Assembly: GCF_004005855.1 (NCBI RefSeq)
Contig: NZ_SACL01000006.1
Span: 1 to 64,000, forward strand
Reading direction: 5' to 3'
Source of the DNA: Rhodovarius crocodyli
GTDB taxonomy: Bacteria > Pseudomonadota > Alphaproteobacteria > Acetobacterales > Acetobacteraceae
DNA length: 64,000 nt
The notes below the pieces were generated by a model. It saw nothing but the letters and a program-made list of their open reading frames with translations. It searched no databases and had not been told where the DNA came from. Position numbers and translations under genes: made by a program. This document shows, piece by piece, positions 1-42,425 of the stretch (position 1 is its first letter; the number at the start of each line of letters is the position of its first letter).

Positions 1-92
1 ATCATCTCGGCGCGCGCCGCAGCAGTGTTCATTTTCTGCCGATGCATCTCGCGCACTGCACTGATTTTCTCGCGCGTCAAATAGCGATCCAT
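1..92 (-). CDS. Partial phage early protein, cut by window edge
   Basis: An ATG at 90-92 opens a frame that stays open to the window edge (about 30 codons, beginning MDRYLTREKISAVREM). It starts two bases after the stop of the preceding leftward gene, as elsewhere in this tightly packed operon. The visible part is basic and probably helical. Too little is present to assign a function. Confidence 0.5.
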   Translation of the reverse strand, partial: MDRYLTREKISAVREMHRQKMNTAAARAEM

Positions 93-94
93 GC

Positions 95-745
95 TCACCC
101 CTCCCCCTGCGCGCAGGGGGCGGTGGCTTCGGCGGGGAAGCCGTCGCCGACACGGGCGAGTGCTGCGTTCACGGCGTCGTCCACCAGCTGCGCCAGCTCA
201 GGGCGGTTCTGCTTCAGCCAGGCGCGCTGACCGCTGAACTTCCCGTCAGCGATGACGGCGTCCAGGGCGGCCGTGTCCTGCGCGGCAGCGAGACGCGCCA
301 CCAGGGCATCCGCGCCTGCCTTCGCCTTGTCCTCGGCGGCCTGCTTCGGCGCCACAGGCTTGAGCACCTGCACCTTGTAGGGCTCGCGCTTCGCCTTCGT
401 GACGGTCAGCGCCATCACTATGTCCCGGTCGATGTGGGACATGGCGCCGATCCGGATGCCGCCCACCTCCATGCCGCCGAACTTCACCTTGGGATCCCGG
501 TAGAGGGTCATGGAGCGCCCAACATATTGCGACGCATCCGCCCCCCATGCGGCCACCATCACTCGGCGCATCATCTTGCAGGGTTTGAAAGGCCGGTTCT
601 CGTCTCCCTCATAGTGGACAGAGACAGGCTGGTCGGCATTCCCGGTTCCCGAAACGTGGCTCACCGTGATGGTGCGCGGCCCTGAAATCAGATCATCCGC
701 GTTGGTCTGGTCGCTTTTGGGCGCCAGGAATTGGGACATATCCAT
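95..745 (-). CDS. Phage protein next to YqaJ exonuclease; possible recombination partner
   Basis: 216 aa with an AGGAGAGAG stretch just upstream of the ATG. The N-terminal 130 residues look like a compact beta-rich domain (segments such as RTITVSHVSGTG and YVGRSMTLYRDPKVKFGG). The C-terminal part is an Ala-rich helical region. It lies in the same leftward operon as the YqaJ-type exonuclease, separated only by a small AP2/HNH gene. By position it could be the ssDNA-binding or annealing partner of that exonuclease. I do not recognise a Bet, RecT, Erf or Rad52 signature, so the role is inference. Confidence 0.75.
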   Translation of the reverse strand: MDMSQFLAPKSDQTNADDLISGPRTITVSHVSGTGNADQPVSVHYEGDENRPFKPCKMMRRVMVAAWGADASQYVGRSMTLYRDPKVKFGGMEVGGIRIGAMSHIDRDIVMALTVTKAKREPYKVQVLKPVAPKQAAEDKAKAGADALVARLAAAQDTAALDAVIADGKFSGQRAWLKQNRPELAQLVDDAVNAALARVGDGFPAEATAPCAQGEG

Positions 746-754
746 TTCTCTCTC

Positions 755-1225
755 CTATGCGCGCATGATCTTCCCGGGCCGAAGCTCCAGACGACGCGCC
801 TCATAGGCCGCCGCCGCCTCTTCCTCGGTCAGGAATGCGCCGATGTAGATGTTCTTGTAATTGTGGGTGATTTGAGCCACCCACCGCCGGTTCGGGCCGT
901 GCCACGACACACCACGGAACCGGGATGAGCCCGCTTTATGGCGCGCGCAGTTCACCATGTTGTCGTGGTGGGTCACGGACCGCAGGTTCACCCGGCGATT
1001 GTCCAGACCGTTCCCGTTGATGTGGTCGGTCAGCAGCCCCACCGGCGTCTGATTGATGAGGCGGTGCATCCAGATTGTGACCCGCTTGCCGTCAATCTTC
1101 ACGTCGCGGGCCGCGTAATAGGTGCGCGGCTGCTTCAGGGCGTGCCACTTCCATTGGGACAGGATGGGGTAATCCTCGTCGTCAACGATGGCCTGCTGCC
1201 CGAGCGTGAGTTCGATCATCGCCAT
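755..1225 (-). CDS. HNH endonuclease with AP2 DNA-binding domain
   Basis: 156 aa. The N-terminal half has the phage HNH pattern: WKWHA, then WMHRLINQTP, then LLTDHINGNGLDNRRVNLR with the DH and N residues of the catalytic beta-beta-alpha fold. The C-terminal part is an AP2-type domain (RFRGVSWHGPNRRWVAQI, then YIGAFLTEEEAAAAYEA). These are typical free-standing homing-type nucleases of phages. The ATG at 1223-1225 overlaps the stop of the exonuclease gene, so translation is probably coupled. It separates the exonuclease from the next recombination-module gene. Confidence 0.88.
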   Translation of the reverse strand: MAMIELTLGQQAIVDDEDYPILSQWKWHALKQPRTYYAARDVKIDGKRVTIWMHRLINQTPVGLLTDHINGNGLDNRRVNLRSVTHHDNMVNCARHKAGSSRFRGVSWHGPNRRWVAQITHNYKNIYIGAFLTEEEAAAAYEARRLELRPGKIMRA

Positions 1226-1908
1226 CAGATCATGATCTCCTGCTCGACGCGCCGCTCCGTGGGCAGCCAACGCATGTCGTCGGCTTCCAGGTTGGCGCGA
1301 TAGGTTGCGATGTACTGGGCGGCGGCTTCCTCGAAGGCAGTCGCGGCCTCGATGATGGCGGCCTGGATGCGCGCGTCGGGGTAGACCCGGAGCGTCACCA
1401 TCGGCAGGCCGCCGGAATAGCTTACGAAGTCGCACCACGCCCGGCCGGTCACGAGCAGGCTGGTTTGCACCTGCATCACGTAATCGTCCGGCATCTGGCG
1501 CGCGCAGATCGTCGCCACCTGGAACTTCTGTCGGCGGCTCTTGATCTCGATCAGGCCATTATCGCCCACCAGCCCGTCAGGCGAGCAGCCGATCGTGAAG
1601 CCCCACTCGTCGTTGGTGACGAAGCCGCATTCGGTCACGGGCGCATAGGCCTCGGCATAGCGCTGCCGTGCCTCGAGCTCGTCATCCTGGCCGCGCAGCA
1701 TCTCGTCCCCGATGTAGGTAGGCTCGACGAAGCCGCTGATGCGCTGCGAGACCAGCTCGAACAGGTGCGCCCGCTGTTTGTCGTTGGCGGCCACTTTGAG
1801 CGTCGGCGTGACGATCAGCTTCATCTCGCTGGCCGTGAGCAGCCCGCACCGCAGCGCCAGCCACTCGTCGCTGCCCTGCACGACCTCGGGGTGGTAGATG
1901 ATGGTCAT
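1225..1908 (-). CDS. YqaJ-type viral recombinase / exonuclease
   Basis: 227 aa. Family motifs are visible: GSDEWLALRCGLLTASE near the N-terminus, and in the middle the catalytic block GCSPDGLVGDNGLIEIKSRR (PDG followed by E-x-K, metal-binding core of the lambda-exonuclease fold). It should degrade one strand of linear phage DNA to make recombination substrates. The ATG at 1906-1908 overlaps the stop of the upstream gene; an in-frame extension to 1998 is rejected because it would overlap that gene by about 90 bases. Confidence 0.9.
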   Translation of the reverse strand: MTIIYHPEVVQGSDEWLALRCGLLTASEMKLIVTPTLKVAANDKQRAHLFELVSQRISGFVEPTYIGDEMLRGQDDELEARQRYAEAYAPVTECGFVTNDEWGFTIGCSPDGLVGDNGLIEIKSRRQKFQVATICARQMPDDYVMQVQTSLLVTGRAWCDFVSYSGGLPMVTLRVYPDARIQAAIIEAATAFEEAAAQYIATYRANLEADDMRWLPTERRVEQEIMI

Positions 1909-2324
1909 GCCTGCCCCCGGGCCTTCTCTGCGGCGGCTATCTCCCTGACCAGCCATTCCCTCATTCGGCAAAAACGCTGTTCTGGGGTCTCTCTCCAAGA
2001 GCCCGCCTCATCGTTCATGAAGACGATTTCCCGCGCCATGGCAGGAGCGATCCCGAACGCGGTCGACACGCAATCTGCGTCTTCCGGGTCGATCCTCTCC
2101 ATGCTGACGCCGCGAGCGACACCGACCGCGCCTATGAGGCAGACCTCGCCCTTCGCGTGAAGGTGGTCGGAGATGAGGCGCTTGGTGGGCATAGCGTCCA
2201 AGGCCGCCAGAGCCTCTCGAAGGAATGCGATGCCTCGATTGCCCCGCATGGCGGCCTTCACCGCGCCGCGCCAGCGGATAAGAGCCCACCCTTCGCAGGC
2301 GTCGCTGTATTCGGACCGGCTCAC
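1905..2324 (-). CDS. Conserved-looking phage early protein, function unknown
   Basis: 139 aa, translationally coupled to both neighbours by ATGA overlaps. The sequence begins MSRSEYSDACEGWALIRW and has alternating helices with a segment MPTKRLISDHLHAKGEVCLIGA, reminiscent of many phage proteins encoded beside recombination genes. No catalytic motif is evident. Operon position suggests an accessory role in early phage DNA metabolism (inference). Confidence 0.75.
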   Translation of the reverse strand: MSRSEYSDACEGWALIRWRGAVKAAMRGNRGIAFLREALAALDAMPTKRLISDHLHAKGEVCLIGAVGVARGVSMERIDPEDADCVSTAFGIAPAMAREIVFMNDEAGSWRETPEQRFCRMREWLVREIAAAEKARGQA

Positions 2325-2620
2325 GGCTTCACCGCCTGCGCAGCCTGGCGGAACGCATGCGCCGCTGCCACGCGGTTGCCGTTGGCGAGGTCAGCGAACG
2401 CAGCCTGCGCCCACCACAGAGCCTCGGTTTCCTCGTCGGTGTGAACCTGGGCGGCGGCGTCTGCCGTAACGACGCTGAGCTTGCCCAGCACTGCGGCATC
2501 GGGCCAGCCGCAGCGCACGGGGCGAACCGGGCGTGTCGAGCTGGGGCGCCGGGGGAACTCCACATGCACCACCACAGGCGGCGGCACAGGCATCACGGGC
2601 GCGCTGGACGGGGCGGTCAT
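2321..2620 (-). CDS. Small phage early protein, unknown
   Basis: 99 aa with a Pro-rich N-terminus (VMPVPPPVVVHV) and a C-terminal helical segment ending AAHAFRQAAQAVKP. Start and stop overlap neighbouring genes by four bases, the pattern of the whole leftward operon. No recognised domain. Confidence 0.6.
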   Translation of the reverse strand: MTAPSSAPVMPVPPPVVVHVEFPRRPSSTRPVRPVRCGWPDAAVLGKLSVVTADAAAQVHTDEETEALWWAQAAFADLANGNRVAAAHAFRQAAQAVKP

Positions 2621-2838
2621 GCGGCCTCCCCGGCTGCCGCCGCGATGGATGCGACCACCGCCGCGTGAGATGAATAGAGAGCCACCCTTGCCGGGTCGTT
2701 TGACCAGTAGGCATGCTCATCAGGGCGGTACTGCGCCAAGGGCTCTCTTTGTGCATACAGTGCCTTGGCGGCCGCGAGATGAACCTCAGCGGACCGCAGC
2801 GCAGCAAGCATCTTGCGGGCTGTTTCTTGGCTAATCAT
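2617..2838 (-). CDS. Small phage early protein, unknown
   Basis: 73 aa from the ATG at 2836-2838, which overlaps the stop of the upstream gene. A longer frame reaching 3069 is rejected because it would lie antiphase over that gene. The protein is mainly helical and Ala-rich with a central aromatic segment (YRPDEHAYWSNDPARVALY). No function can be assigned. Confidence 0.6.
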   Translation of the reverse strand: MISQETARKMLAALRSAEVHLAAAKALYAQREPLAQYRPDEHAYWSNDPARVALYSSHAAVVASIAAAAGEAA

Positions 2839-3197
2839 GCGGACACTCCCAGGGCGGCAGCGGTCGCGCGGCCCTTCTCGGTGAGGGTGATCGTCAGCTT
2901 CCCCTCGGCGCGCGATTTCTCGGCCATGCCGCACAGGATCAGGTTCTTCAGGCCGCGACGGTTCTGGGGCTCGATCCCGAGTGCCGTGGCCTCCAGCAGC
3001 GTCGCCGCGTCCGTGGACATCCTGGCGCCGTCGATCTCGTAGAGGGCGCGGATACCCTGGCCCTGGCACCAGCGCCGGGCGTGCTGGAGGTCGAGGAAGT
3101 TCTCGATGCTCATCTGCACGCCGTGTTCGGTCAGGTGGCCGAAAAACCAGAAGCCACGCGGCGAGGGGACGATGATAGGCTGGCCGACGCTAGCCAT
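2835..3197 (-). CDS. Phage early protein, unknown
   Basis: 120 aa from the ATG at 3195-3197. Two halves are visible: an N-terminal segment around GFWFFGHLTEHGVQ, and a C-terminal basic segment (GKLTITLTEKGRATAAALG) that resembles the winged part of small helix-turn-helix proteins. DNA binding is possible but not established. Coupled by short overlaps to both neighbours. Confidence 0.65.
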   Translation of the reverse strand: MASVGQPIIVPSPRGFWFFGHLTEHGVQMSIENFLDLQHARRWCQGQGIRALYEIDGARMSTDAATLLEATALGIEPQNRRGLKNLILCGMAEKSRAEGKLTITLTEKGRATAAALGVSA

Positions 3198-3375
3198 GGG
3201 GCGCCTCCTGCTTGGCGGATGCGCGGGCAACATCGAGCTGGACGAGGGCCAGCCGGGCGCCCTCCATCGCTTCCCCATGAACACGGAAGCTATTGCCGTT
3301 CGGACGGGGCCATGCGTCATCGACCACCCTGCGCAACGCCTTCTCCAGCAGCGCTACCTGCTCGTCGGCGGTCAC
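3190..3375 (-). CDS. Small phage early protein, unknown
   Basis: 61 aa (starts MTADEQVALLEKALRRVV, ends RASAKQEAPHG). Overlaps the following gene by eight bases and the preceding one by four. Charged and probably helical; no recognised family. Confidence 0.55.
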   Translation of the reverse strand: MTADEQVALLEKALRRVVDDAWPRPNGNSFRVHGEAMEGARLALVQLDVARASAKQEAPHG

Positions 3376-3722
3376 AGCCGATACTCCCTGTCAGACTGGC
3401 GATAGGCCGCGCGGGCGTTGTCGAACGCGACGTGCGGCAGGCTATTCTGGGCCGCGCGTTCGCAGTCGCGCTCGATGTCCGAGACGATCCCGCTGGCCAG
3501 ATCGACCATCATGGCGCCCAAGCTCAGACCGTCCTCGGTCGTCTGCTGGTCCGTGGCCATGGCGTCCGCGACGGGATCAGCCGCTTCACAGAACATGCGC
3601 AGCTGATACAGCGCGGTCAGCTTGCGCTCGTAGAACGCCTCAGCGTCGGCGTCCGAGACGGCATCAACAGCGCGCCGGTGCATCGCGTCGATCTGCTCGG
3701 CGTAGGTGGCGAGGATGGACAT
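3372..3722 (-). CDS. Phage early protein, unknown
   Basis: 116 aa, strongly helical and acidic, starting MSILATYAEQIDAMHRR with a conserved-looking middle (YERKLTALYQLRMFCEAAD). Three bases separate its start from the stop of the first gene of the operon. No enzyme motif is visible. Confidence 0.65.
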   Translation of the reverse strand: MSILATYAEQIDAMHRRAVDAVSDADAEAFYERKLTALYQLRMFCEAADPVADAMATDQQTTEDGLSLGAMMVDLASGIVSDIERDCERAAQNSLPHVAFDNARAAYRQSDREYRL

Positions 3723-3725
3723 GGC

Positions 3726-4028
3726 TCAGCCCTCCCCACGCGAGGAGGCGATGGCGGTGGCCACCTTCTCCATGGCGAGGAACCGATCCGCGTCGGTCAT
3801 GTCGGCGGCGCAGAACACCGCCTCGCACGCCTCCAGCAGCGCCGGGGCCGCGGCGATCAGGCGGGCGTCAGCCTCCGGAGCGCCGAGCGGACCGCTTCCA
3901 ACCACAAAGGTGGTGTTCACCAAGGCGACATGGGCGCTGGGCTGTTCGATGGCAGGGTCTACCTGCTGCCAGATGCGCCAAGGCCCCGGAGTGTGGGCCG
4001 CCTTCTGCTCCGTCTTCGTCTCGCTCAT
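3726..4028 (-). CDS. First gene of the leftward phage operon; HTPGPW / LIAAAP family
   Basis: 100 aa. It shows two hallmarks of a very common phage protein family: HTPGPWRIWQQ near the N-terminus and ADARLIAAAPALLEACEA in the middle. Members are found in early operons of many proteobacterial phages; the molecular function is not known to me. An AGGAGCC ribosome site precedes the ATG. The gene is directly downstream of the proposed left promoter and two operator copies, so it should be repressed in the lysogen. Confidence 0.8.
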   Translation of the reverse strand: MSETKTEQKAAHTPGPWRIWQQVDPAIEQPSAHVALVNTTFVVGSGPLGAPEADARLIAAAPALLEACEAVFCAADMTDADRFLAMEKVATAIASSRGEG

Positions 4029-4068
4029 CTCAGGCTCCTCTTGGAGCCAGCGGCTCCGTGTGTGGAGC

Positions 4069-4099
4069 TTATGTGGCCATAGCGGCCTTATATCGTCAA
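4069..4099 (-). promoter_or_regulatory. Candidate left early promoter (PL-like)
   Basis: On the minus strand TTGACG (complement of 4094-4099) is followed, after 18 bp, by CACATA (complement of 4070-4075), or ACATAA one base on. A GGCC-N5-GGCC operator occupies the spacer. It points into the leftward operon beginning at 4028. The arrangement mirrors the cro promoter. Confidence 0.55.
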
Positions 4100-4112
4100 G
4101 GCCAAAGTGGCC
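4075..4112. promoter_or_regulatory. Left operator pair, two GGCC-N5-GGCC sites
   Basis: GGCCATAGCGGCC at 4075-4087 and GGCCAAAGTGGCC at 4100-4112, centres 25 bp apart. The same palindrome type occurs three times in the repressor/cro gap. One copy lies between the -35 and -10 of the proposed leftward promoter, the other just upstream of the -35. These are the best candidates for repressor or Cro binding. Confidence 0.65.
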
Positions 4113-4136
4113 ACACGATGGGCAAAAAAATACCTC

Positions 4137-4502
4137 CTATCTCGCTGGCGCGTTTGCGGCGCGAACGAACGTGGCTAAGGCTTGGCTGAAGCGCTCGGTT
4201 GGCCTGGATTGGCAGTAGTTTTCAACCCAATAAGAGACACCTTCATGATCCACGCTTTGAAGAATGTCGTTAATTCCAAAGAAAATAGTCGCCCCCGACA
4301 GATACCCATTCATCCAGCTTTCCACATGGAAAAAACGGTCTTGCTCCCGCGATCCCAACGTCCCTGCTCTGTATCCTGACCGCCAAGCCAACCATTGGCC
4401 ACAGGAAACAGACACTCCTGCGCCTCGAATTGTCACCTGCTGAGCCCCAGCGGGGAAAGACAGCGCTAACACCCCGAAAACCGCGCATAGCCACTTTTTC
4501 AT
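4137..4502 (-). CDS. Small exported protein co-translated with the phage repressor
   Basis: 121 aa from the ATG at 4500-4502, which overlaps the repressor stop codon. Residues 1-21 form a clear Sec signal peptide (MKKWLCAVFGVLALSFPAGA, cleavage expected after AGA). The mature part has two Cys residues and segments WMNGYLSGATIF and VSYWVENYCQSRPTERF. This pattern is loosely like small periplasmic HdeA or Rap1a/Tai-type proteins, but that resemblance is weak. Being in the repressor operon it should be made in the lysogen, consistent with a superinfection-exclusion or host-fitness role (inference). Confidence 0.75.
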   Translation of the reverse strand: MKKWLCAVFGVLALSFPAGAQQVTIRGAGVSVSCGQWLAWRSGYRAGTLGSREQDRFFHVESWMNGYLSGATIFFGINDILQSVDHEGVSYWVENYCQSRPTERFSQALATFVRAANAPAR

Positions 4503-5182
4503 AGTAGCTCCCTCCAATGCAGGGCACGCCACATCTCTTTGACGCGGGCGCGCTCTATCACCTTCTCGGTCTGCGGGTTGTATTGGCGCAGGGTGATGCG
4601 CTGATTGTCACCGCCGACGTATTCCTTGAGGTATGCCGCTGGCTGCTCGCCCTGGCCCATCTCCACCAGCACAACGGCGTAGCTCCCTGGTGTCACCGGG
4701 CGCTTCCGAGAGACGTACACCGTGTCCCCTGGCGCCCAGACCCCGGCCATGCTGTCACCCGCGACGAACAGCGCGAAGATGTCCGGTACACCCACCAGCT
4801 TCGCAGGAACGTCCACATATTCCAGGGGGCCATCCGTCAGGTTTACCTCGAACTGGCCATCCGTCCCGCAAGAGACCGTCCCCATAACTGGAACCTGCGC
4901 TGAAAGCGGTAGTCGGGCAGCCTCCATGGGCTGGCGCGTTGCAACAGGCTGCACGTCGCTTCCCGCGGCGAAAGGCTCCGCTGGGATGGGAGCCCCGGGC
5001 TTCGTAAGCAGATCCTCAGGACGGACAGTGAGCGGTGGGGCGAATTTTTCTGCCCAGTGCCGCCGCAGCTCTCTTGCGCCGCGCACGAGCTTGCTGACCG
5101 TGCTCGGGTCAGTGCCAGTGAGGCGAGCCAAATCAGCGGCCTGAAGGTGTCGCGCCGCAAGGACTTCAGCTAGACGGGTCAT
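4499..5182 (-). CDS. Phage repressor, HTH plus S24 (LexA/CI-like) peptidase
   Basis: 227 aa from the ATG at 5180-5182. N-terminal helix-turn-helix: LAARHLQAADLARLTGTDPSTVSKLVRGAR. The C-terminal S24 domain has the catalytic Ser in FVAGDSMAG (Ser144) and a candidate Lys in AAYLKEYVGGD (Lys186). A likely self-cleavage site is Cys105-Gly106 in MGTVSCGTDGQ. It would keep the prophage silent and be inactivated by RecA after DNA damage. An upstream in-frame extension to 5488 is rejected because it crosses the operators and the divergent cro-like gene. No ribosome site precedes the ATG. Confidence 0.92.
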   Translation of the reverse strand: MTRLAEVLAARHLQAADLARLTGTDPSTVSKLVRGARELRRHWAEKFAPPLTVRPEDLLTKPGAPIPAEPFAAGSDVQPVATRQPMEAARLPLSAQVPVMGTVSCGTDGQFEVNLTDGPLEYVDVPAKLVGVPDIFALFVAGDSMAGVWAPGDTVYVSRKRPVTPGSYAVVLVEMGQGEQPAAYLKEYVGGDNQRITLRQYNPQTEKVIERARVKEMWRALHWRELL

Positions 5183-5184
5183 CG

Positions 5185-5255
5185 GGCCGTTATGGCCAAA
5201 AATGTCTTGATGATCACCGGCCGAAATGGCCTTGACTGTTGAGGCCATAGTGGCC
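5185..5255. promoter_or_regulatory. Right operator region, three GGCC-N5-GGCC sites
   Basis: Copies GGCCGTTATGGCC (5185-5197), GGCCGAAATGGCC (5219-5231) and GGCCATAGTGGCC (5243-5255); centre spacings 34 and 24 bp. The first overlaps a possible -10 (CATAAC, complement of 5189-5194) of the leftward repressor promoter. The third fills the spacer of the rightward cro promoter. The layout fits a lambda-like OR with autoregulation of the repressor. Confidence 0.7.
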
Positions 5256-5260
5256 ACAAT
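5232..5260 (+). promoter_or_regulatory. Candidate right early promoter (PR-like)
   Basis: TTGACT at 5232-5237, a 17-bp spacer, then CACAAT at 5255-5260. The cro-like ATG is only six bases after the -10, so the transcript would begin at or within a base or two of the start codon. No Shine-Dalgarno sequence is present, which fits a leaderless mRNA. Confidence 0.65.
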
Positions 5261-5266
5261 TCGTCC

Positions 5267-5482
5267 ATGACCCTGGACGAGTACCGCGCCCGTGAGGGCC
5301 TCTCCTACGAGGCTTTGGCTGAGAGGCTTGGCTTTGCCGGCCCCAATGCCGCCAGGACCGTCCACCGCTATGCCGGCGGCGAGCGCATCCCGCGACCTGA
5401 CGCTATGCGCAGGATTATGGAAGCCACCGGCGGCAAGGTCACGCCTACCGACTTCTACGCCGCTGCCCGGGAAAGCGCGTGA
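5267..5482 (+). CDS. Cro-like helix-turn-helix protein
   Basis: 71 aa, divergent from the repressor. A helix-turn-helix is visible (LSYEALAERLGFAGPNAARTVHRYAGGERI), with a C-terminal MRRIMEATGGKVTPTDFY typical of short Cro/CI-type regulators. Probably opens the lytic programme by shutting off the repressor. The ATG appears leaderless. It overlaps the next small gene by one base. Confidence 0.8.
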   Translation: MTLDEYRAREGLSYEALAERLGFAGPNAARTVHRYAGGERIPRPDAMRRIMEATGGKVTPTDFYAAARESA

Positions 5483-5628
5483 TGTCATCGCCGCGCGCCC
5501 TCATCGGCAAAATCCTGCTGTGGTTCACGCGCGCCGCCGAACCCAAGCCCTTTGACTGGGCTGAGTTCGACCGCTGCCTCAAGGTCAATGAGCGCCGCCT
5601 GTGTGACCAGCTCCGGAAAAGCGTGTGA
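5482..5628 (+). CDS. Very small protein coupled to the cro-like gene
   Basis: 48 aa beginning MSSPRALIGKILLWFTRA, with TGATG overlap to the cro-like stop. A short N-terminal hydrophobic stretch is followed by charged residues (EFDRCLKVNERRLCDQLRKS). It may be a small phage regulator or membrane-associated peptide. Its end overlaps a convergent minus-strand gene by 44 bases. Confidence 0.45.
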   Translation: MSSPRALIGKILLWFTRAAEPKPFDWAEFDRCLKVNERRLCDQLRKSV

Positions 5629-5821
5629 TGTGCATGACCAGTTCATCCACGGCCGCCTCCATGTACGCGCCGTCTGGCGCCGTCGGTGCGGGGCGGTATT
5701 GCTCCAACGCTTCCATGATCCTGCCGCGCTGTGGACTTGCGGCGATCAGCGCCGCGACTGCGACGCGCAAGACCGCGATGGACGTGGTCGCCATCGCCAA
5801 GCGTTGCTGTTCTTCGTTCAT
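5585..5821 (-). CDS. Small phage protein, convergent with the cro operon
   Basis: 78 aa starting MNEEQQRLAMATTSIAVLR; a strong GGAGG site ends seven bases before the ATG at 5819-5821. Sequence is helical with a segment GRIMEALEQYRPAPTAPDG. The orientation opposes the early rightward operon. No known family; a lysogen-expressed or antisense-control role is possible but only inferred. Confidence 0.5.
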   Translation of the reverse strand: MNEEQQRLAMATTSIAVLRVAVAALIAASPQRGRIMEALEQYRPAPTAPDGAYMEAAVDELVMHITRFSGAGHTGGAH

Positions 5822-5854
5822 GACTATCCTCCATGTCGTCATTCCCCTGACCAT

Positions 5855-6157
5855 GGTGGATCACGGACCGGTTATTGCGCAATCGCGTAGGCCGGTCCGT
5901 GCTTCCTCTTCCCGCAGCGTCGCCAGCGGCTTCGGCCTGGCGCTCCGGGCAGCCGCGCGGGCCGGATATCCCCGCCTTGGGCCTCTCCTCCGTGTCTCGA
6001 CTGCGGGTGTCGCTGGCGCGCCCTGCGCATTTTCCAGGGAGGTGCCCGAACAGCGCGCCAACGCTGCCCGGGCGGTTACTGCGATCTGCCATGCCCCGTT
6101 TTTTGCATCGGAGAGCATGGAATGTCCTGGTCAAATTCTGACCGAAGTTTTCACAGC
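5855..6157. other. Gene-poor stretch with an inverted repeat
   Basis: No convincing gene. A minus-strand frame of 85 codons (5861-6118) has an AGGA upstream of its ATG, but its Arg/Ala/Pro-rich translation looks like noncoding read-through. A perfect 10-bp inverted repeat lies at 5862-5871 and 5892-5901. The stretch may hold control sequences for the rightward operon. Confidence 0.4.
5862..5901. repeat. Perfect 10-bp inverted repeat
   Basis: CACGGACCGG at 5862-5871 pairs with CCGGTCCGTG at 5892-5901; the 20-base loop contains the smaller palindrome TTGCGCAA. No T-run follows on the plus strand, so a simple terminator is not obvious. It may be a protein-binding site or an RNA hairpin. Confidence 0.5.
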
Positions 6158-6409
6158 ATGACCGCCGCAACCGCATCCCCTGGCGACCGGGTGATGGAGG
6201 CCCTGCGGCGTCTCTACGGCCCGCTGCGCCATGCCGAGAAGCTGCTCGGCCGGCGCGCCAATTCCACCCCCAGGGCGGCCCGAAACTGGCTCGACGACAA
6301 CTGCGCCATGAGCGTGGACAAGCTCGTCGAGCTGATGGCCGCCGATCCGAAATTCCATGCCGCGGTCAATGAGGTCGTCTCGACCCGCCGCGCCGAGAGG
6401 TCCCCCTGA
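6158..6409 (+). CDS. Phage early protein, probable helix-turn-helix
   Basis: 83 aa from the ATG at 6158 (an upstream in-frame ATG at 6122 is less likely). The middle, LRHAEKLLGRRANSTPRAARNWL, followed by VDKLVELMAADPKFHAAV, resembles small phage DNA-binding proteins in which an HTH is followed by LMA-type helices. Probably an early regulator. TGATG overlap with the next gene. Confidence 0.6.
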   Translation: MTAATASPGDRVMEALRRLYGPLRHAEKLLGRRANSTPRAARNWLDDNCAMSVDKLVELMAADPKFHAAVNEVVSTRRAERSP

Positions 6410-6573
6410 TGCGCAGAAGCATCATCTTCGTAATCGGCCTGCACGGCTTCGGGTTCGATCGAGGCGACGTGTTCCCCGAGCTGCGTCTCGGCCTGGTCTC
6501 CATCAGCTGGTGCAAGGGCCGCTGGATCGACGTCATCAACGAGGCCGCCAAGGCCAAGGCAGCGGCGGCATGA
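6409..6573 (+). CDS. Small phage protein, unknown
   Basis: 54 aa: hydrophobic start MRRSIIFVIGLHGFGFDRG, then FPELRLGLVSISWCKGRWIDV and an Ala/Lys-rich tail. Coupled by overlapping start and stop codons to both neighbours, which supports it as a real gene. Function unknown. Confidence 0.55.
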   Translation: MRRSIIFVIGLHGFGFDRGDVFPELRLGLVSISWCKGRWIDVINEAAKAKAAAA

Positions 6574-7004
6574 GCGGATACACCGGACGCCCGTGGTCTG
6601 GAGCAGATGACCAAGCGCTGATCGCCGCGTACTTCGCTGGCGATACTCGCCGCGCGATGGCCGAGCGCTTCGGCCGTTCCATGAATTCTGTTGCCACGCG
6701 CATCCTGCGCCTTCGCGAGTTGGCCGAACTGCCGACCGCGTTCGATATTGGGGCCTCGCGCCTTTCACCGGCCGCTGACCCGCCTGCCGGATCGCCCCAC
6801 CCTGCCGACGCCATCGCGCCCCCCACAAGCAACGCGCAGGCCAAGGTTAACCCGTGCGAGGGCCGCGAGAGCGGTGAGCATGCGGGAAGGGTGGGAGCGG
6901 GTCACATCCATGACCGGATCGTCATGAGCCTCACGGCGCGTGGCGTTCCGCTCCATCGCGCCATCCGTGAGGCCGAGCTGTATCGGCAGCGGAGGTCGGC
7001 ATGA
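6570..7004 (+). CDS. SANT/Myb-like or GcrA-like DNA-binding phage protein
   Basis: 144 aa from the ATG at 6570. The N-terminus, GRPWSGADDQALIAAYFAG followed by RRAMAERFGRSMNSVATRIL, is a helix-turn-helix of the SANT/GcrA type. A Pro-rich linker leads to a C-terminal helix (VPLHRAIREAELYRQRR). Likely a phage transcription factor for early or middle genes. It overlaps both adjacent genes by four bases. Confidence 0.7.
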   Translation: MSGYTGRPWSGADDQALIAAYFAGDTRRAMAERFGRSMNSVATRILRLRELAELPTAFDIGASRLSPAADPPAGSPHPADAIAPPTSNAQAKVNPCEGRESGEHAGRVGAGHIHDRIVMSLTARGVPLHRAIREAELYRQRRSA

Positions 7005-7117: not shown

Positions 7118-7259
7118 GCCCGCCGCCGTGACCACGGACCAGATCACGACCGCCCAGGCGATGGCCCGCAGCGGCTGGACGGACTTCGACATCGCGGCCC
7201 GCACTGGCCTGCCGATCGAGCAGGTGCGTCGGCTGCTGCCGAAGGTGAAGCGCGCATGA
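7110..7259 (+). CDS. Small helix-turn-helix phage protein
   Basis: 49 aa (starts MTEPAAVTTDQITTAQAM). The sequence ARSGWTDFDIAARTGLPIEQVRRLLP reads as a short homeodomain-like HTH. It overlaps the helicase gene by four bases. Likely a small DNA-binding accessory protein. Confidence 0.6.
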   Translation: MTEPAAVTTDQITTAQAMARSGWTDFDIAARTGLPIEQVRRLLPKVKRA

Positions 7260-9679
7260 CGCTGACTCTCCGCCCCTATCAGGAAGAAGCTATCGAGGGC
7301 GTCCGCGACGCCTACCGCTCCGGTGCGCGTGCCCCGCTGCTGGTGGCTCCCACGGGCGCGGGCAAGTGCCTCGCGCGCGGTACGCCCGTCATCATGTTCG
7401 ATGGCCGCGTGGTGCCAGTCGAGGATGTCGTGGTCGGTGACCTTCTGATGGGGCCAGACAGCCGCGCGCGCCGGGTGACCTCGCTGGCGCGCGGCCGCGA
7501 AGAGATGTTCCGCATCACGCCCCTCCGAGGCGGCGATCCCTACACCGTCAACCGGTCGCACGTCCTTTCACTGCGAATGACCGGCGGCTCGCTGCACACT
7601 TGCGGCATTCCAGACGGCACAGTTGTTAACCTGTCCGTCGATGAATACCTGGCCCGTAACAAGACCTTCCGCCATTGCGCAAAGGGCTGGCGTGCGGCGG
7701 TCGACTTCCCCGAGCACGAGGAGCCCTTGCGGCTCGACCCGTATTACCTTGGCGTTTGGCTCGGCGACGGCAGCAGCCGGGGCGCCTCGATCACCACTGG
7801 TGATCCCGAGGTCCATGAAGCGGTCGAGGCTTGCGCAGCGTCCCATGGGCTGGCTTTGCGGGTGGAGCCCAACAGCGCGCACAGCGTGATGCTGTTCCCG
7901 ACGACCGGCAGGCGCGGCGTAGGTCGAGGTCATCGCACCAACGCCATCACCGGCGCGCTTCACCACTATGGCCTGCTGCAGAACAAGCATGTCCCGCATC
8001 GCTACCTGACGGGCTCACGCGCAGACCGCCTGGAACTGCTGGCTGGCTTTCTGGACGCTGACGGCTGCTGGACGGGTCGCGGCTTCGACGTGACCCTGAA
8101 GTGCGAACGCCTGTTGGACGGCATCATCTTTGTCGCTCGCTCGCTCGGGTTCGCCGCAAGGCGTCGCCCGGCTCGCAAGGTCTGCGGGAACAATGGGAAA
8201 GTGGGCGACTACTGGCGCTGCAACATCAATGGGCCGGTAGACGAAATTCCCTGTCGCGTGGCGAGGAAGCGCGCCGCGCCGCGCCGGCAGATCAAGAGCC
8301 AGTTGCTGACCGGCATCACCGTCGAAAGCGTCGGTCAAGGCGATTATTTCGGCTTCGAGATCGCTGGCCCGGATCGCCTGTTCCTGCTCGGCGACTTCAC
8401 CGTCACCCACAACACCGTCATGTTCGGCTTCGTCTCCGGCCAGACCGCCTCTCGCGGCAAGCGCGTGCTCGTCCTGGCCCATCGGCGCGAACTGATCCGC
8501 CAGGCGTCCCGCAAGCTGCATGAGGCAGGCGTGCACCACGGCGTCATCGCGCCCGGCCATGACCAGACCGCGCACCCCGTGCAGGTCGCCAGCGTGCAGA
8601 CCCTCACGCGCCGGCTCGACCGCCTGCAGCCACCGGACCTGATCGTCATCGACGAGGCGCACCACGCCATCGCTGGTCAGTGGGCCACCGTCATCGCCGC
8701 GTTCCCCTCTGCCCGGCTGCTCGGCGTCACCGCTACGCCTGAGCGTCTGGATGGCCGGGGCCTCGGCGTCGAGGTGGGTGGCTGCTTCGACGCGCTGGTC
8801 ATGGGGCCCCGTGTGGCCGACCTGATCGAGCAGGGCCACCTCACCGGCACCCGCGTATTCGCCCCTGCAGATGCGCCGGACCTGACCGGCGTGCGCACCA
8901 AGGGCGGTGACTATGAGCATGCGGCCCTGAACGCCGCCATGTCCAAGCCCAGCATCACCGGCGACGCCATCCTCCACTACAACCGCCATGCTGCAGGTCA
9001 GCCGGCGATCCTGTTCTCCCCCTCCGTCGAGCATGCCCGCGAGATGGCCGAGGCTTTCCGTGCTGCAGGCTGGCGGGCGGCCTCTGCCTCTGGCGCCACG
9101 CCCACCGCTGAGCGCGACGCCGCGATCGCAGGTCTGGCCACGGGTGAGGTTCAGATCCTCTGCAGCTGCGACCTGATCTCCGAGGGCCTGGACGTGCCGG
9201 CCGTCGGCTGCGTCATCCTGATGCGCCCCACCAAGTCGCTCGGCCTCTACCTGCAGCAAGTCGGCCGCGGTCTGCGCCCTGCTGCCGGCAAGGATCGGCT
9301 GATCGTCCTCGACCACGCGGCCAACACGCTCATGCACGGCCCCATCGAGGCTGACCGAGAGTGGAGCCTGCGCGGCCGCCCTAAGCGCCAGGCTGCATCG
9401 GCTCGCCAGTGCCCGACCTGTTATGCCGTGCACGCGCCAGCACCGACCTGCCCCGCCTGCGGCCATCGCTATGCCAGCGAGGGCGGCGACGGACGCCAGG
9501 GGCCTGAGGTGATCGCGGGAGAGTTGCAGGAGCTGACGGCGGCCAAGATGCAGCCCCTCCGCAACGTTCTGTGGAAGGCCAAGACCGAGGACGACCTGCG
9601 CGCCCTGGCTCGTGAGCGTGGCTACAAGCCGGGGTGGGTGCGGCACATCATGGCCCAGCGCGCTGCGAGGCACGCATGA
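7256..9679 (+). CDS. DEAD/DEAH-box helicase interrupted by an intein
   Basis: 807 aa precursor. N-extein residues 1-37 end in the P-loop (LLVAPTGAGK); intein residues 38-386; C-extein resumes with TVMFGFVSGQ and carries the DEAH box (LIVIDEAHHAI), motif III-like LLGVTATPERL, the helicase C domain (CDLISEGLDVP, QVGRGLRPAAGKDRLIVLD) and a C-terminal zinc ribbon (CPTCYAVHAPAPTCPACGH). Spliced helicase would be about 458 aa. It probably unwinds phage DNA during replication or recombination. Coupled by ATGA overlaps to the genes on both sides, including a VRR-NUC nuclease. Confidence 0.93.
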   Translation: MTLTLRPYQEEAIEGVRDAYRSGARAPLLVAPTGAGKCLARGTPVIMFDGRVVPVEDVVVGDLLMGPDSRARRVTSLARGREEMFRITPLRGGDPYTVNRSHVLSLRMTGGSLHTCGIPDGTVVNLSVDEYLARNKTFRHCAKGWRAAVDFPEHEEPLRLDPYYLGVWLGDGSSRGASITTGDPEVHEAVEACAASHGLALRVEPNSAHSVMLFPTTGRRGVGRGHRTNAITGALHHYGLLQNKHVPHRYLTGSRADRLELLAGFLDADGCWTGRGFDVTLKCERLLDGIIFVARSLGFAARRRPARKVCGNNGKVGDYWRCNINGPVDEIPCRVARKRAAPRRQIKSQLLTGITVESVGQGDYFGFEIAGPDRLFLLGDFTVTHNTVMFGFVSGQTASRGKRVLVLAHRRELIRQASRKLHEAGVHHGVIAPGHDQTAHPVQVASVQTLTRRLDRLQPPDLIVIDEAHHAIAGQWATVIAAFPSARLLGVTATPERLDGRGLGVEVGGCFDALVMGPRVADLIEQGHLTGTRVFAPADAPDLTGVRTKGGDYEHAALNAAMSKPSITGDAILHYNRHAAGQPAILFSPSVEHAREMAEAFRAAGWRAASASGATPTAERDAAIAGLATGEVQILCSCDLISEGLDVPAVGCVILMRPTKSLGLYLQQVGRGLRPAAGKDRLIVLDHAANTLMHGPIEADREWSLRGRPKRQAASARQCPTCYAVHAPAPTCPACGHRYASEGGDGRQGPEVIAGELQELTAAKMQPLRNVLWKAKTEDDLRALARERGYKPGWVRHIMAQRAARHA
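7367..8413 (+). mobile_element. LAGLIDADG intein inserted in the helicase Walker A motif
   Basis: In-frame insertion of 349 codons, first residue Cys38 (block A: CLARGTPVIMFDG), block B-like YTVNRSHVL, C-terminal block DYFGFEIAGPDRLFLL and GDFTVTHN, followed by extein Thr387. The endonuclease core has two LAGLIDADG-type helices: LDPYYLGVWLGDGS and LELLAGFLDADGCW. Removing it restores GAGKT. All splicing residues (Cys1, His-Asn at the end, Thr+1) are present, so it looks active. Confidence 0.93.
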
Positions 9680-37901: not shown

Positions 37902-38327
37902 ATGCTCGGGATGACGTACTTCGACTGGCCGGTAACGGTCGGCGACAATGACGTGCGCCTATTCTTCGTCCCCGAGGGCGACACGTCCATGGATCTGACG
38001 GGTAGCACGCTGCGCCTGTCGATCACCTGGAGCGGGGGCGAGATCGTCCTGTCCAGCGCCTCGCCGGTCGTCATCGACGACCTGCAGTATGGCATCTGGC
38101 TGGAAGATCAGGCGAACCCCCTCACCACGGGCTTCTTCGGCGTGCGGCTGACGGTCGAGCAGACCGATATGTTGCCAAATGAGCCAAACTGGTTCGGCCG
38201 CGCCGGCACCTACAACCCGCCCCCGGAACGAGCGCGATACGAGGTGCAGTACGAGGTGGATGGCGCTTCGGCCGTCATCGTCGCGGGCACCGTCATCGCC
38301 ACGAAGTGGATCACCCCGAATGGTTGA
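37902..38327 (+). CDS. Fibre-region protein, unknown
   Basis: 141 aa, beta-rich: DWPVTVGDNDVRLFFVPEGD, LRLSITWSGGEIVLSSASPV, FFGVRLTVEQTDMLPN, ending VATKWIT-like. Similar beta proteins in fibre clusters are often small adaptors. Eight-base overlap with the next gene. Confidence 0.65.
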   Translation: MLGMTYFDWPVTVGDNDVRLFFVPEGDTSMDLTGSTLRLSITWSGGEIVLSSASPVVIDDLQYGIWLEDQANPLTTGFFGVRLTVEQTDMLPNEPNWFGRAGTYNPPPERARYEVQYEVDGASAVIVAGTVIATKWITPNG

Positions 38328-38601
38328 AATCTACGCGCCTGGCGAGAGCCGGGTGGCCGTTGCCGCGCGCGCAGCGCGGGATGAGGCCGTGCAGGCAAGT
38401 GCCGCGACGGAGCGGACCGCTATTGGGGCGACGGCCTATTCCGCCACGTTGGCGCCCCTGGTGCTGACTGAGGACCGGAACGGCGTGATGGTCACCACGA
38501 CCTTCGCGCCCGGCGTCATAACCGAGGTGTACGGCGCGCCCATCAACGAGACCTGGGTGACCACCATCACCGCCGGCAGCGTCGTAAAGGAACGGGTCTG
38601 A
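38320..38601 (+). CDS. Fibre-region protein, unknown
   Basis: 93 aa from the ATG at 38320. Ala-rich helix (AARAARDEAVQASAATERTA) then beta segments (NGVMVTTTFAPGVITEVYGA). Helix-plus-beta form could be a trimeric fibre tip or a short coiled coil. Unknown family. Confidence 0.6.
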   Translation: MVEIYAPGESRVAVAARAARDEAVQASAATERTAIGATAYSATLAPLVLTEDRNGVMVTTTFAPGVITEVYGAPINETWVTTITAGSVVKERV

Positions 38602-38975
38602 TGTCTGTTACGGTCTCGATCCCCACAGTCGGCGGCATGCCGGTCGAAGATGCCAACCCCCTGCCGGTGCTTCCCGCCCGCGTCGCCAATGTGGTGACCG
38701 GCGCGCTGACCTCCGGCGGCCTGACCGGCGACGCGTTCATCCCCCTGGCGCCCGACTTCAATATCTCGATCTGGGGCAACTGGACGGGCTCGATCGCGCT
38801 GGAGCGCAGCCTAGACGGCGGCGCGACTTGGCTTCCCTACACATACAGCGACGGCACTGCCGTGGCGTGGAGCCTCAACATCAGCACGTCCTGGGCGGAG
38901 CCGGAGGCGGCGATCCGCTACCGGCTTCGCGCCGGCAACATCACCGGCACCGCCAACTGGCGCCTGAGCCAGTAG
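38601..38975 (+). CDS. Fibre-region beta-rich protein
   Basis: 124 aa: TVGGMPVEDANPLPVLPARV, FIPLAPDFNISIWGNWTGSI, ALERSLDGGATWLPYTYSDG, ending RYRLRAGNITGTANWRLSQ. Pattern of a single beta-sandwich head domain found in many fibre clusters. Probably a virion surface protein. Confidence 0.65.
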   Translation: MSVTVSIPTVGGMPVEDANPLPVLPARVANVVTGALTSGGLTGDAFIPLAPDFNISIWGNWTGSIALERSLDGGATWLPYTYSDGTAVAWSLNISTSWAEPEAAIRYRLRAGNITGTANWRLSQ

Positions 38976-39166
38976 GAGACCCCACACATGGCAATCCTGA
39001 TGGCGCCGGGGCTCTCTCGTGGAGCCTCGCGCAGCTTGTCGCGCCTGTCCCTGCATCGCCACGGCCTGACCTAGGCCTCTCTCCAATCCGACCCGGCAAC
39101 CTGCCCCACGATGGGAGCGGGGCGCTTTCGTGCGCGTAGCGGCGCCGAACCAGAAGGCAAATCCCC
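38976..39166. other. Short gap with a possible 28-codon frame
   Basis: About 190 bases. A frame at 38988-39074 (starts MAILMAPGLSRGASRSLSRL) follows an AGGAG by ten bases but is very short. The second half has no obvious coding potential. Confidence 0.3.
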
Positions 39167-39442
39167 ATGAAAATCACGGTTGTGCCGCTGCCCGCAGGGG
39201 TGGTGACGCTGCTCTGCGCCGACGCGGTGCGGAATTACCTCACCGTCGTCAACATCGACGTGAACGACGCCTCGATGAGCGACAGCAGCAGCGTGACCGC
39301 CGGGAGCGGCTGGCCGCTGCCCGCCGCGTCGAACGCCGGCGGCCAGGGCGGTGGTTACGAATGGAGTGCCAGCCAGACCCCGCGCGGCGCGCTTTACGGC
39401 ATCAGCACCGTCGGCACGCGCATCTGCGTGATGGAGGGCTGA
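39167..39442 (+). CDS. Fibre-region small beta protein
   Basis: 91 aa: MKITVVPLPAGVVTLLCADA, RNYLTVVNIDVNDASMSDSS, ALYGISTVGTRICVMEG. Repeated beta strands; no family recognised. Directly upstream of the SGNH hydrolase gene, three bases apart. Confidence 0.6.
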   Translation: MKITVVPLPAGVVTLLCADAVRNYLTVVNIDVNDASMSDSSSVTAGSGWPLPAASNAGGQGGGYEWSASQTPRGALYGISTVGTRICVMEG

Positions 39443-39445
39443 TCC

Positions 39446-40681
39446 ATGGCGATCATCCAGCCGCCTGGGATCAATGCGCGGCGCGCCGTCGTCCTGAAAA
39501 CGCCACAGACACGTCGCGCCCAGCGTGTGCACATTCGTGGCTTCACTGGCATCACGGGCCGCACCAGCCACGTCACGGCCGCCATGGCCGGGGGCTATAC
39601 CTGGGTCCGCGCCTGGTTCGCTAATGACAGCGCGACACCGTTCACGGTGGACAAGCTGACGTTCGCGGCCACGGCCGTGGCGACGGACAGCAATCCGCGC
39701 GATGCTGGCGGAACCTCCATCGGCGGCTGGGTGCAAGGCTGGTTCGATGGCGCCGGGGTGGACACACTGCCGGGATCTACCGCACAGACCGCGGCCAGTA
39801 TCACGGTTCCGGCGGGGACCGCCGCCAATCCGTCCTATGTCTGCTCCGATTGGCTGCTGCTGGCGCCCATCGACCGTGCCGACGGCGACTGGCGACGCTA
39901 CCTGATGTGCCGCGCCTACACCTCCGGGGCGTCGCGCTGGGCCACGCGGCCGGACCTGACCTGGGACAGCCCCACCGTCAATCTCGGCCGCCTGTGGACG
40001 ATGTATGATGGCGCTGGCGACCAGACCACCACAGCCACACTGCTGACCGAGGGGCTGCGCGGCGCAACGCTGGCCCTGGAGGCGATCAGCGACCGCAGCG
40101 GTCATGTGTTCATGGCCGTCGGTGACAGCCTGACGCAGGGCCAGGGCAGCACCAGCGATTACGCGACCTGGGGGCATATCGCCAGCGCGGCCCTCTCCAC
40201 CTCGGCCCTGCCGATGAGCTTTGTCAACGCGGGCTGGTCAGGCCAGACGACCCTTCAGTTCTACGACCGGGGGCGTGGCGAAATCGCCCGGTTCCGTCCC
40301 ACGATCTGCGCCATCGCGCCGTGGTCGCCCAATGACACGCTCGACCTTGCCAACGCCCAGCGCGGCTACTCGCGTGCGATGGCCATGGCGCAACAGGTTC
40401 GGGACGGCGGCGGCATCCCGGTGTTCTGGACGCCGATGCCCACCGACCGCATCACCACGACCACGCAGGAGGATGCGCGGCTGTGGGTGGTCAACAAGCT
40501 GCGGGGCCTGCGGGACAGCGGCAACATCCTGCTCGCGGATTTCGACGTGCTGCTGACGGATGGCGCCTATCCGGCCCGCATCAAGGCATCGCTCACCGTG
40601 GACGGCACCCACCTCAATGACGCCGGATATGCGTTGTGCGGGGGAGCCATGCAGGCGGTTCTTCGGCTGGTGGCGGCGTGA
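39446..40681 (+). CDS. SGNH/GDSL-type hydrolase in the tail module
   Basis: 411 aa. N-terminal about 210 residues are a beta-rich domain; the C-terminal half has SGNH blocks: HVFMAVGDSLTQGQGS (catalytic Ser), FVNAGWSGQTTLQFYD (block II Gly), AIAPWSPNDTLDL (Asn block), and SLTVDGTHLNDAGYALCGG (Asp-x-x-His). Likely a carbohydrate esterase on the virion that deacetylates capsule or O-antigen during adsorption; alternatively it changes the lysogen surface. Four bases separate it from the preceding gene. Confidence 0.85.
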   Translation: MAIIQPPGINARRAVVLKTPQTRRAQRVHIRGFTGITGRTSHVTAAMAGGYTWVRAWFANDSATPFTVDKLTFAATAVATDSNPRDAGGTSIGGWVQGWFDGAGVDTLPGSTAQTAASITVPAGTAANPSYVCSDWLLLAPIDRADGDWRRYLMCRAYTSGASRWATRPDLTWDSPTVNLGRLWTMYDGAGDQTTTATLLTEGLRGATLALEAISDRSGHVFMAVGDSLTQGQGSTSDYATWGHIASAALSTSALPMSFVNAGWSGQTTLQFYDRGRGEIARFRPTICAIAPWSPNDTLDLANAQRGYSRAMAMAQQVRDGGGIPVFWTPMPTDRITTTTQEDARLWVVNKLRGLRDSGNILLADFDVLLTDGAYPARIKASLTVDGTHLNDAGYALCGGAMQAVLRLVAA

Positions 40682-40716
40682 CCGAGCGCGCCCTTGGCAA
40701 AGGGGACGGATAACTG

Positions 40717-41280
40717 ATGCCCCAGACCGCAGAGCTGGCCGAAATCAAAGATACCCTGCGCCAGTTGGCCGACAGCATGGCCAAGGCCGAGGAACACCGC
40801 ACTGCAAATCGACAGCAGCGAGACGCCTCCATCGTTGCGGCCATCGCTGAGGTGAAGGGCAAGGTTGAGGCCCCATGGAGCCGGTTCGTCGCCCCCGTTG
40901 GCACGATGATCGGCACCCTCATCCTGGTGGGCGGCCTGCTCATCGCCTACGGGCGCAATGACGCAGCGCTCGTCGCGCGTGTGATCGCGGTCGAGCAGTC
41001 GGTGCAGACCGCGGGCCGCCTTCGCGACCAGCAGCAGGAGGGAATGCGCGACAGGCTGCGCGCCCTGGAGCAATCGGATCAGGTCGCCAGCGAGCGCACA
41101 AACCAGATGCTCCAATCCCTCGCCACCATCACCGCCCAGCTCCAGGCACAGACCGTGCGGCTGGAGGAAGTGCTTCGGCGGCAGGACCGGCTGGAAAACC
41201 GCCTGGGCGCCAGGCCGGGCAGCGAGGCACCGGAGCGACCGACCGCCTTTGAGGCGCCGCTCACCGGGCGCGACATCTGA
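40717..41280 (+). CDS. Membrane-anchored coiled-coil protein
   Basis: 187 aa. Helical N-terminus, a transmembrane helix near residues 60-80 (MIGTLILVGGLLIAYGRN), and a long C-terminal coiled coil (LRDQQQEGMRDRLRALEQSD, VRLEEVLRRQDRLENRLGAR). It precedes the lysis genes. It may be a holin-like or superinfection-exclusion membrane protein; that is inference. Confidence 0.65.
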   Translation: MPQTAELAEIKDTLRQLADSMAKAEEHRTANRQQRDASIVAAIAEVKGKVEAPWSRFVAPVGTMIGTLILVGGLLIAYGRNDAALVARVIAVEQSVQTAGRLRDQQQEGMRDRLRALEQSDQVASERTNQMLQSLATITAQLQAQTVRLEEVLRRQDRLENRLGARPGSEAPERPTAFEAPLTGRDI

Positions 41281-41296
41281 ACCATAGGAGGCCGTG

Positions 41297-41974
41297 ATGG
41301 CTGACCCGAAAGCGAGCCGGGGGTTCAAGAACAAGAACCCCACCAATCTGCGCTTCATCCGTGACCCGAAGCGAGCATGGAACGGGCAGCTTGGCCTGGG
41401 TGATCAGTGGATGCCTGAGCATCTGCGCGGCATGGCCGAGTATGCGACCCACGCTCTCGGCATCCGCGCTGGCGTCGGCCAACTGGTGGTCAACCAGACG
41501 CGCAACGGGCTCGACACGATCTGGAAGCAGATCAATTCCTGGGCGCCGGAAAGCGACGGAAACGACCCCGTGGTCTATGCCCGCAGCGTCGCCACGGCGC
41601 TCGGGGTGGACATGCACGCCAAGATCGACGTGCGCCCTTATCGCGTGATGAAGATGGTGCTGGCCGCCATCATCAGCATGGAGTGCGGGGGCATGCCCTA
41701 CACCCAGGCTGAGATGGACGAGGGCATGGCGCTCTACGGCATCACGGAGTTCAGCCAGCCGGCGCCCGTCTCCACCATCCGCCAAGCCGCCACAACACCC
41801 AGCGGAACGGCGGTCGCGAAGGCGCTGGGCACCTTGACCCCGCTTGCTGCGTTGGCTCCTGTCGCCACGGCGGTGGGCGGCATCCCGTGGCAGACGCTGA
41901 GTGTGCTGCTGATTGCGGCCGGCATCGGCATCGCCGTGTGGCAGTGGCAGCAGCGCAAGGACAAGGCGGCGTGA
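41297..41974 (+). CDS. P5-like lytic enzyme with C-terminal membrane helix
   Basis: 225 aa, ATG at 41297 after AGGAGG. The N-terminal 150 residues match phage structural P5-like / endolysin proteins: GFKNKNPTNLRFIRDPKRAW, YATHALGIRAGVGQLVVNQT, INSWAPESDGNDPVVYARSV. The C-terminus has a hydrophobic helix (LSVLLIAAGIGIAVW) then a basic tail. Likely the cell-wall enzyme of the lysis group. Overlaps the spanin start. Confidence 0.75.
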   Translation: MADPKASRGFKNKNPTNLRFIRDPKRAWNGQLGLGDQWMPEHLRGMAEYATHALGIRAGVGQLVVNQTRNGLDTIWKQINSWAPESDGNDPVVYARSVATALGVDMHAKIDVRPYRVMKMVLAAIISMECGGMPYTQAEMDEGMALYGITEFSQPAPVSTIRQAATTPSGTAVAKALGTLTPLAALAPVATAVGGIPWQTLSVLLIAAGIGIAVWQWQQRKDKAA

Positions 41975-42210: not shown

Positions 42211-42367
42211 TTGCTCGGCATGGCGCCCGATCCTGACGCACACGCCGCCACGCGATATGCCTCGCGCCCAGGCTGCTGAGGCAGGCTTCGACGTGCTGAC
42301 CGATGAAACCGTGCGTGCGCTCCTGGCCCACAACGAGACGGGACGCCGCCTCTGCGGGTGGGGATAG
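42143..42367 (+). CDS. Outer-membrane spanin (Rz1-like lipoprotein)
   Basis: 74 aa, ATG at 42143 inside the preceding frame in another phase. Signal peptide with lipobox LILLSGC (Cys16 acylated). Mature part CGVTGAVDCSAWRPILTHTP and FDVLTDETVRALLAHNETGR is typical of short spanin lipoproteins in alphaproteobacterial phages. Confidence 0.85.
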   Translation: MWRWTWLASLILLSGCGVTGAVDCSAWRPILTHTPPRDMPRAQAAEAGFDVLTDETVRALLAHNETGRRLCGWG

Positions 42368-42425
42368 CGCCCGTTTTATGCTCATGCGAGATTAGCCCGG
42401 TCGTTTCCCGTGCGCGGAGGGCTGG

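Follow-up and report, generated by a model that had tools for sequence, protein, structure and literature searches.

The helicase gene and its prophage

The window, by which we mean the whole stretch of DNA analysed in this study (64,000 nucleotides of Rhodovarius crocodyli, positions 1 to 64,000 of contig NZ_SACL01000006.1), carries an SF2 helicase gene whose reading frame contains an intein, and the features of the locus are listed in Table 1. The gene neighbourhood of the intein is a prophage, in which PHROGs and Pfam searches recognized genes for a RecE-like exonuclease, an HNH endonuclease, an endonuclease (phrog_93) and a DNA helicase/primase, as well as for terminase, portal, head protease, tape measure and tail fibre. 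It is probably a temperate phage. Base 1 of the window is also the first base of the contig and falls within the prophage, and the same prophage is present in IMG/VR as UViG 2882837327_000006 (43,319 bp, 100% identical over the intein), a provirus that would span approximately bases 3-43321 of the window if colinear with it. No integrase was found among the 20 ORFs of the surroundings compared with PHROGs and the 10 compared with Pfam. A comparison of window positions 1-7000 with 38000-47000 for attachment repeats gave no common exact 16-mer, the best blastn match being 20 bp long (95%, E 0.037).

Table 1. Coordinates of the intein, its host gene and neighbouring features in the window
Feature	Position	Strand	Remarks
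HNH endonuclease-like and RecE-like exonuclease genes	755-1438 and 1225-1998	-	near contig end
Repressor	4499-5488	-	phrog_4
SF2 helicase ORF including intein	7256-9679	+	807 aa, ATG start
N-extein, helicase aa 1-37, ends ...VAPTGAGK (Walker A through Lys)	7256..7366	+	
Intein, 349 aa, Cys1 to Asn349; splicing domain and LAGLIDADG homing endonuclease	7367..8413	+	
N-terminal splicing (Hint) region, aa 1-70, Cys1 and block-B His65	7367..7576	+	PF05203 match aa 1-70
First LAGLIDADG helix, aa 125-134, ends LGVWLGD, Asp134	7739..7768	+	predicted helix; PI-SceI D218 alignment
Second LAGLIDADG helix, aa 218-232, ends LLAGFLDAD, Asp232	8018..8062	+	predicted helix; PF05204 aa 221-266; PI-SceI D326 alignment
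C-terminal splicing region, aa 317-349, ends FTVTHN	8315..8413	+	
C-extein, from Walker A Thr+1; DEAH motif, ResIII, Helicase_C	8414..9679	+	stop codon 9677-9679
tRNA-Thr	43805-43879		
Bacterial EPSP-synthase-family (MurA-like) gene	45326		

Residues 1-37 and 387-807 of the precursor make up the helicase and residues 38-386 the intein, so that the exteins together come to 458 aa (807-349), in agreement with the length that an earlier note on this DNA had given for the spliced product. The C-extein matched PF04851 (ResIII, 1.2e-21) and PF00271 (Helicase_C, 7.4e-17) above their cut-offs, and the helicase matched phrog_16, DNA helicase, at 1.7e-95. ResIII, Helicase_C and a DEAH motif II (VIDEAHHA) are thus all present, as in SF2 helicases of the RadD/ResIII-like kind. 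The RadD equivalog model NF053632 scored only 140.8 bits against a curated cut-off of 720, and by its sequence the helicase is RadD-like and is not classed as RadD.

Anatomy of the intein

The intein lies in frame as 349 codons with no frameshift or stop. Two Pfam families were matched above the gathering cut-off, Hom_end_hint (PF05203, 8e-15) and Hom_end (PF05204, 4.3e-7), and a match to LAGLIDADG_3 fell below its cut-off. Among PDB sequences, the yeast VMA1 intein PI-SceI matched best (6.3e-20), in two stretches covering residues 1-51 and 124-349. An AlphaFold2 model built from an alignment of 40 rows reached a mean pLDDT of 94.5 and a pTM of 0.92; its best fold match was again PI-SceI (Foldseek 3.3e-26, TMq 0.80), and Prp8 inteins were matched as well. 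Asp134 and Asp232, each the terminal residue of one of the two predicted LAGLIDADG helices, align with D218 and D326 of PI-SceI, which we take to be catalytic residues, and the endonuclease active site was judged by these two residues alone.

Conservation was assessed in 176 full-length intein rows, of which 163 are distinct and among which the window's own sequence is present three times; of at least 478 relatives in genome contigs the best 80 were retained, and of 520 in viral contigs 80. His65, His348, Asn349 and Asp232 were each kept in 176/176 rows, Asp134 in 175/176 and Cys1 in 175/176 (a gap in the remaining one); position 310 is variable, with Lys in 116 of the 176. The patterns used to search genome contigs included the second LAGLIDADG and C-terminal THN motifs, so that these counts are partly built in; the viral-contig loci were found with other patterns. 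With the intein as sole query genome contigs gave no relative; the at least 478 mentioned above were retrieved with an alignment.

Cys1, the block-B His65, His348-Asn349 and Thr+1, together with a Hint fold (PF05203, and a model that matches PI-SceI and Prp8 inteins) and an in-frame insert that is missing at the exact codon in intein-free relatives (L011-L015 and L215-L217), are the marks of a class 1 intein. From its sequence the intein is apparently complete and capable of self-splicing. The earlier note had described a complete 349-codon in-frame intein within Walker A, with Cys1, a terminal His-Asn, Thr+1 and two LAGLIDADG helices; its coordinates and junctions were confirmed here, and both helices were recovered by prediction, with the agreement of the PI-SceI alignment and, for the second, of Pfam. 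The correspondence goes far beyond what chance would give.

Insertion site and intein-free alleles

The insert divides the Walker A motif between Lys and Thr, the junction residues being VAPTGAGK↓CLARG...FTVTHN↓TVMFGF (here and below, ↓ marks the insertion point). When viral contigs were searched by the C-extein, eight loci were obtained, namely the window's own prophage with its intein and seven loci without any (L215-L221). Three of the latter (L215, L216 and L217), with 66-67% identity in the C-extein, have GK and T contiguous at the insertion codon. L216 reads VAPTGAGK-TVMFGFV, in which the residues at the junction are identical to those of the window's exteins, and its DNA agrees with that of the window at 28/30 core junction bases and at 97/120 over +/-60. 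Further intein-free relatives, 56-60% identical, occur in five genomes of the same bacterial family (L011-L015). An empty allele of the same phage was not among the eight loci of the C-extein search. At the codon level the insertion, as read from these sequences, is clean. The split of a prophage SF2/DEAH helicase at its P-loop, as the earlier note had proposed, thus agrees with the sequence, the predicted fold, the junction and the empty alleles, and the intein-free alleles with the same junction for which it had advised a search do exist.

That the insert is an artefact of assembly or reading, or a domain native to the helicase and taken for an insert, has practically no probability, and no observation spoke for it. 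Artefact, pseudo-insert and helicase-native domain are ruled out by the junction in eight phage records (see below), by the IMG/VR copy and by the intein-free alleles at the exact codon.

The GC content of the intein (65.4%) is lower than that of the exteins (70.3 and 70.5%), which is weakly consistent with a separate history, but GC at third codon positions is alike in the intein (79.1%) and the N-extein (78.4%) and so gives no pointer to a recent arrival. Recent homing is likewise unsupported, since the nearest intein among the rows listed, the window's own prophage aside, is 62% identical and the nearest empty alleles are the three at 66-67% in the C-extein.

Distribution in the bacterial family and in phages

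Among 150 sampled genomes of the same family, its own included, the intein was matched in 8 and a full-length relative was found in 5; the C-extein was matched in 23/150 at 1e-20. Only the window's intein, out of these five, is inserted at Lys↓Thr. Those of the remaining genomes, G005, G015, G021 and G097, split Walker A three residues further upstream (G↓(S/T)GK), and their helicases have 34-35% identity to the window's C-extein. One intein is identical in genome G015 and in an uncultured Rhodospirillales contig (L004 = L127). The distribution is patchy, the closest helicases of the same family (L011-L015) being those without an intein.

In four genomes of the family (G020, G047, G127 and G015; loci L006-L009) a divergent element was observed in a different protein, where a KGAQVG motif precedes it; its match to the intein is confined to about 240 residues at the C-terminal end. 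It ends in THN↓TE(S/C)GN and is possibly a terminase intein.

Among 50,697 phage records, 590 matched the intein, 234 of them over at least 80% of its length. All eight records that were fetched (Touem01, Vibrio 1.009.O, PS65A.1 and 489E54-1, Klebsiella MEW1, Escherichia Bas95, Salmonella Jerseyvirus and ctsTn925) have the GK↓T junction in common. Some Salmonella phage records carry the annotation 'intein containing helicase precursor', and that of Escherichia phage Bas95 has a 'similar to intein' feature. The earlier note's remark that such inteins are not common in temperate phages of this bacterial group stands only narrowly, for the family (5/150 genomes with a full-length relative, one of them at Lys↓Thr); in phages at large the kind is frequent.

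The own genome holds one copy of the intein, and no relative returned, the IMG/VR copy of the prophage aside, exceeds 60-62% identity, so that nothing points to a recent spread. A decayed element, with its endonuclease inactive and the intein kept only because it is hard to lose, would fit these two observations; we nevertheless consider it unlikely, since the endonuclease domain is intact throughout, with its two LAGLIDADG Asp residues in place and a model of high confidence, and the intein frame is unbroken.

Hosts, insertion registers and phylogeny of related inteins

Host genes of the related inteins were labelled DnaB, SF2 or other by motif patterns, and part of the labels were compared with Pfam. 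Ten of the 29 'other' hosts were examined, giving AAA_5, AAA, AAA_3, AAA_24, GpA terminase, DnaB_C and SNF2-type matches; L157 and L184 proved to be ordinary SF2 helicases overlooked by the pattern, L202 is SNF2-like (also SF2) and L190 had no Pfam match. In ten further hosts the DnaB labels held in 4/4 cases and the SF2 labels in 4/4, while Pfam identified L152 as GpA terminase and gave nothing for L196. The host families at Lys↓(Thr/Ser) accordingly include SF2 helicases, DnaB, GpA terminase and several AAA families, the viral-contig inteins L137, L147, L152, L171, L174, L193 and L195 at this site having AAA_5, GpA terminase (two), AAA_3, AAA, AAA_24 and DnaB_C hosts. In homologous SF2 helicases related inteins also occupy a second register of Walker A, G↓(S/T/C)GK, which precedes the window's site by three residues, and inteins starting with Cys-His were found there in L002, L003, L004 and L005 (same family), L048 (phiHSIC), L053 (YX3973), L073, L078, L079, L100, L103 and L127.

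A tree of the 163 distinct intein sequences was built by a quick method, with SH-aLRT as the only support. The window's intein groups with viral SF2-helicase inteins, including that of phage Touem01 (forks 88-95). The 59 pattern-labelled DnaB rows are set apart by a branch of support 100, and L096 (no N-flank) is placed with them; L195, DnaB_C by Pfam, is placed elsewhere in the tree, which argues against a single DnaB origin. The 17 upstream-site inteins form one side of a weakly supported branch (66), and L196, a Lys↓(Thr/Ser) intein, shares an 18-row group with them (support 93). The GpA-terminase inteins L147 and L152 group with the ResIII-helicase intein L144 (support 94; L147 and L144 are 59% identical). 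This last grouping, with the variety of hosts found by Pfam, indicates that the family moved from one family of P-loop ATPases to another while keeping to a single codon site.

In the flanking DNA of 145 site-a inteins, third codon positions carried 0.01-0.11 bits at 11/13 positions, the exceptions being 0.39 bits at -7 and 1.00 at -1 (A or G). Such low information could reflect either loose recognition or recognition specific to each lineage.

Comparison with known inteins

The closest known counterparts are the inteins of phage SF2 helicases (Touem01, MEW1, 1.009.O), which share with the window's the insertion codon, the splicing and endonuclease domains and the kind of host gene; they are 46-52% identical to it (tblastn) and occur in phage isolates, whereas the window's lies in a prophage. 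Salmonella Jerseyvirus inteins, within the same range of identity, have the same insertion codon and domains in a more distant, SNF2-like helicase (by Pfam on the like protein L202). Bacterial DnaB P-loop inteins (59 rows by Walker A pattern, 4/4 tested being Pfam DnaB_C) belong to the same intein family and occupy the same Lys↓(Thr/Ser) site, but they reside in DnaB-type helicases and form a separate tree group (one change, support 100). PI-SceI shares the fold along its length, the splicing ends and the LAGLIDADG Asp residues, but it is only about 20% identical, has 454 aa against 349 and is hosted by VMA1. The mycobacteriophage TerL1-a inteins (Kelley et al. 2016, PMC5050341) have a terminase host; in that paper insertion between Lys and Thr is termed 'classic' and two TerL1 P-loop sites are one residue apart. 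No paper on the window's helicase intein was found in the literature search, nor one on the inteins of phiHSIC or Jedunavirus or on the Salmonella helicase-precursor inteins.

Discussion

Taken together, the evidence makes us highly confident that the Walker A Lys↓Thr site of an SF2 prophage helicase in the window is occupied by a full-length intein of class-1 type, complete with a LAGLIDADG homing endonuclease, and that this intein, which is predicted to splice and home, is mainly a selfish passenger. After translation, acyl shifts by Cys1 and Thr+1 would be followed by cyclisation of Asn349, releasing the 458-aa helicase with its GAGKT P-loop rejoined. Where two phages meet in one cell, the endonuclease would cut the intein-less site and repair would copy the intein into it. 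The P-loop would be a protected site because imprecise loss of the intein would destroy the helicase.

It is improbable, in our view, that the intein acts, as the earlier note had suggested for its splicing, as a regulatory switch whose conditional splicing (in response to redox state, ssDNA, metal or temperature) gates the helicase and so phage replication; the analysis yielded no evidence for this, and no sensor feature came to notice. A precursor with a split Walker A motif should lack ATP hydrolysis, and P-loop inteins with conditional splicing are reported for RadA (PMC5790916) and for mycobacterial DnaB (PMC6195587, which also states that the RadA intein disrupts ATPase function). The RadA and DnaBi1 examples are however mini-inteins without an endonuclease, while the window's keeps its endonuclease domain whole and so is built like a mobile element, and homologous helicases do without any intein (L011-L015 and L215-L221).

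The window's intein is one more example of a well-known, widespread kind and no new system; taken by itself it is of small consequence, a further entry in a group that already has many members, from a prophage already in IMG/VR. P-loop inteins of DnaB, PcrA, UvrD, RecA and RadA are covered in a review (PMC5874633) that raises the question of why inteins occupy P-loops, and the preference of inteins for conserved sites is shown in PMC2814812. The occurrence of a single intein family at one Walker A codon in different ATPase families, with a related group three residues upstream, offers a set for testing this P-loop preference, for which the alternatives are a loose recognition of P-loop codons by the endonucleases and survival at protected sites only. 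The shared Lys↓(Thr/Ser) site across ATPase families and the related inteins upstream suggest a family of P-loop parasites. We tentatively propose, as a possibility somewhat short of even, that these inteins are largely phage-borne, that their endonucleases tolerate codon variation and jump between ATPase families at the Walker A Lys↓(Thr/Ser), that in homologous helicases their register moved three residues, to G↓(S/T)GK, and that their niche may be the P-loop and not the host gene.
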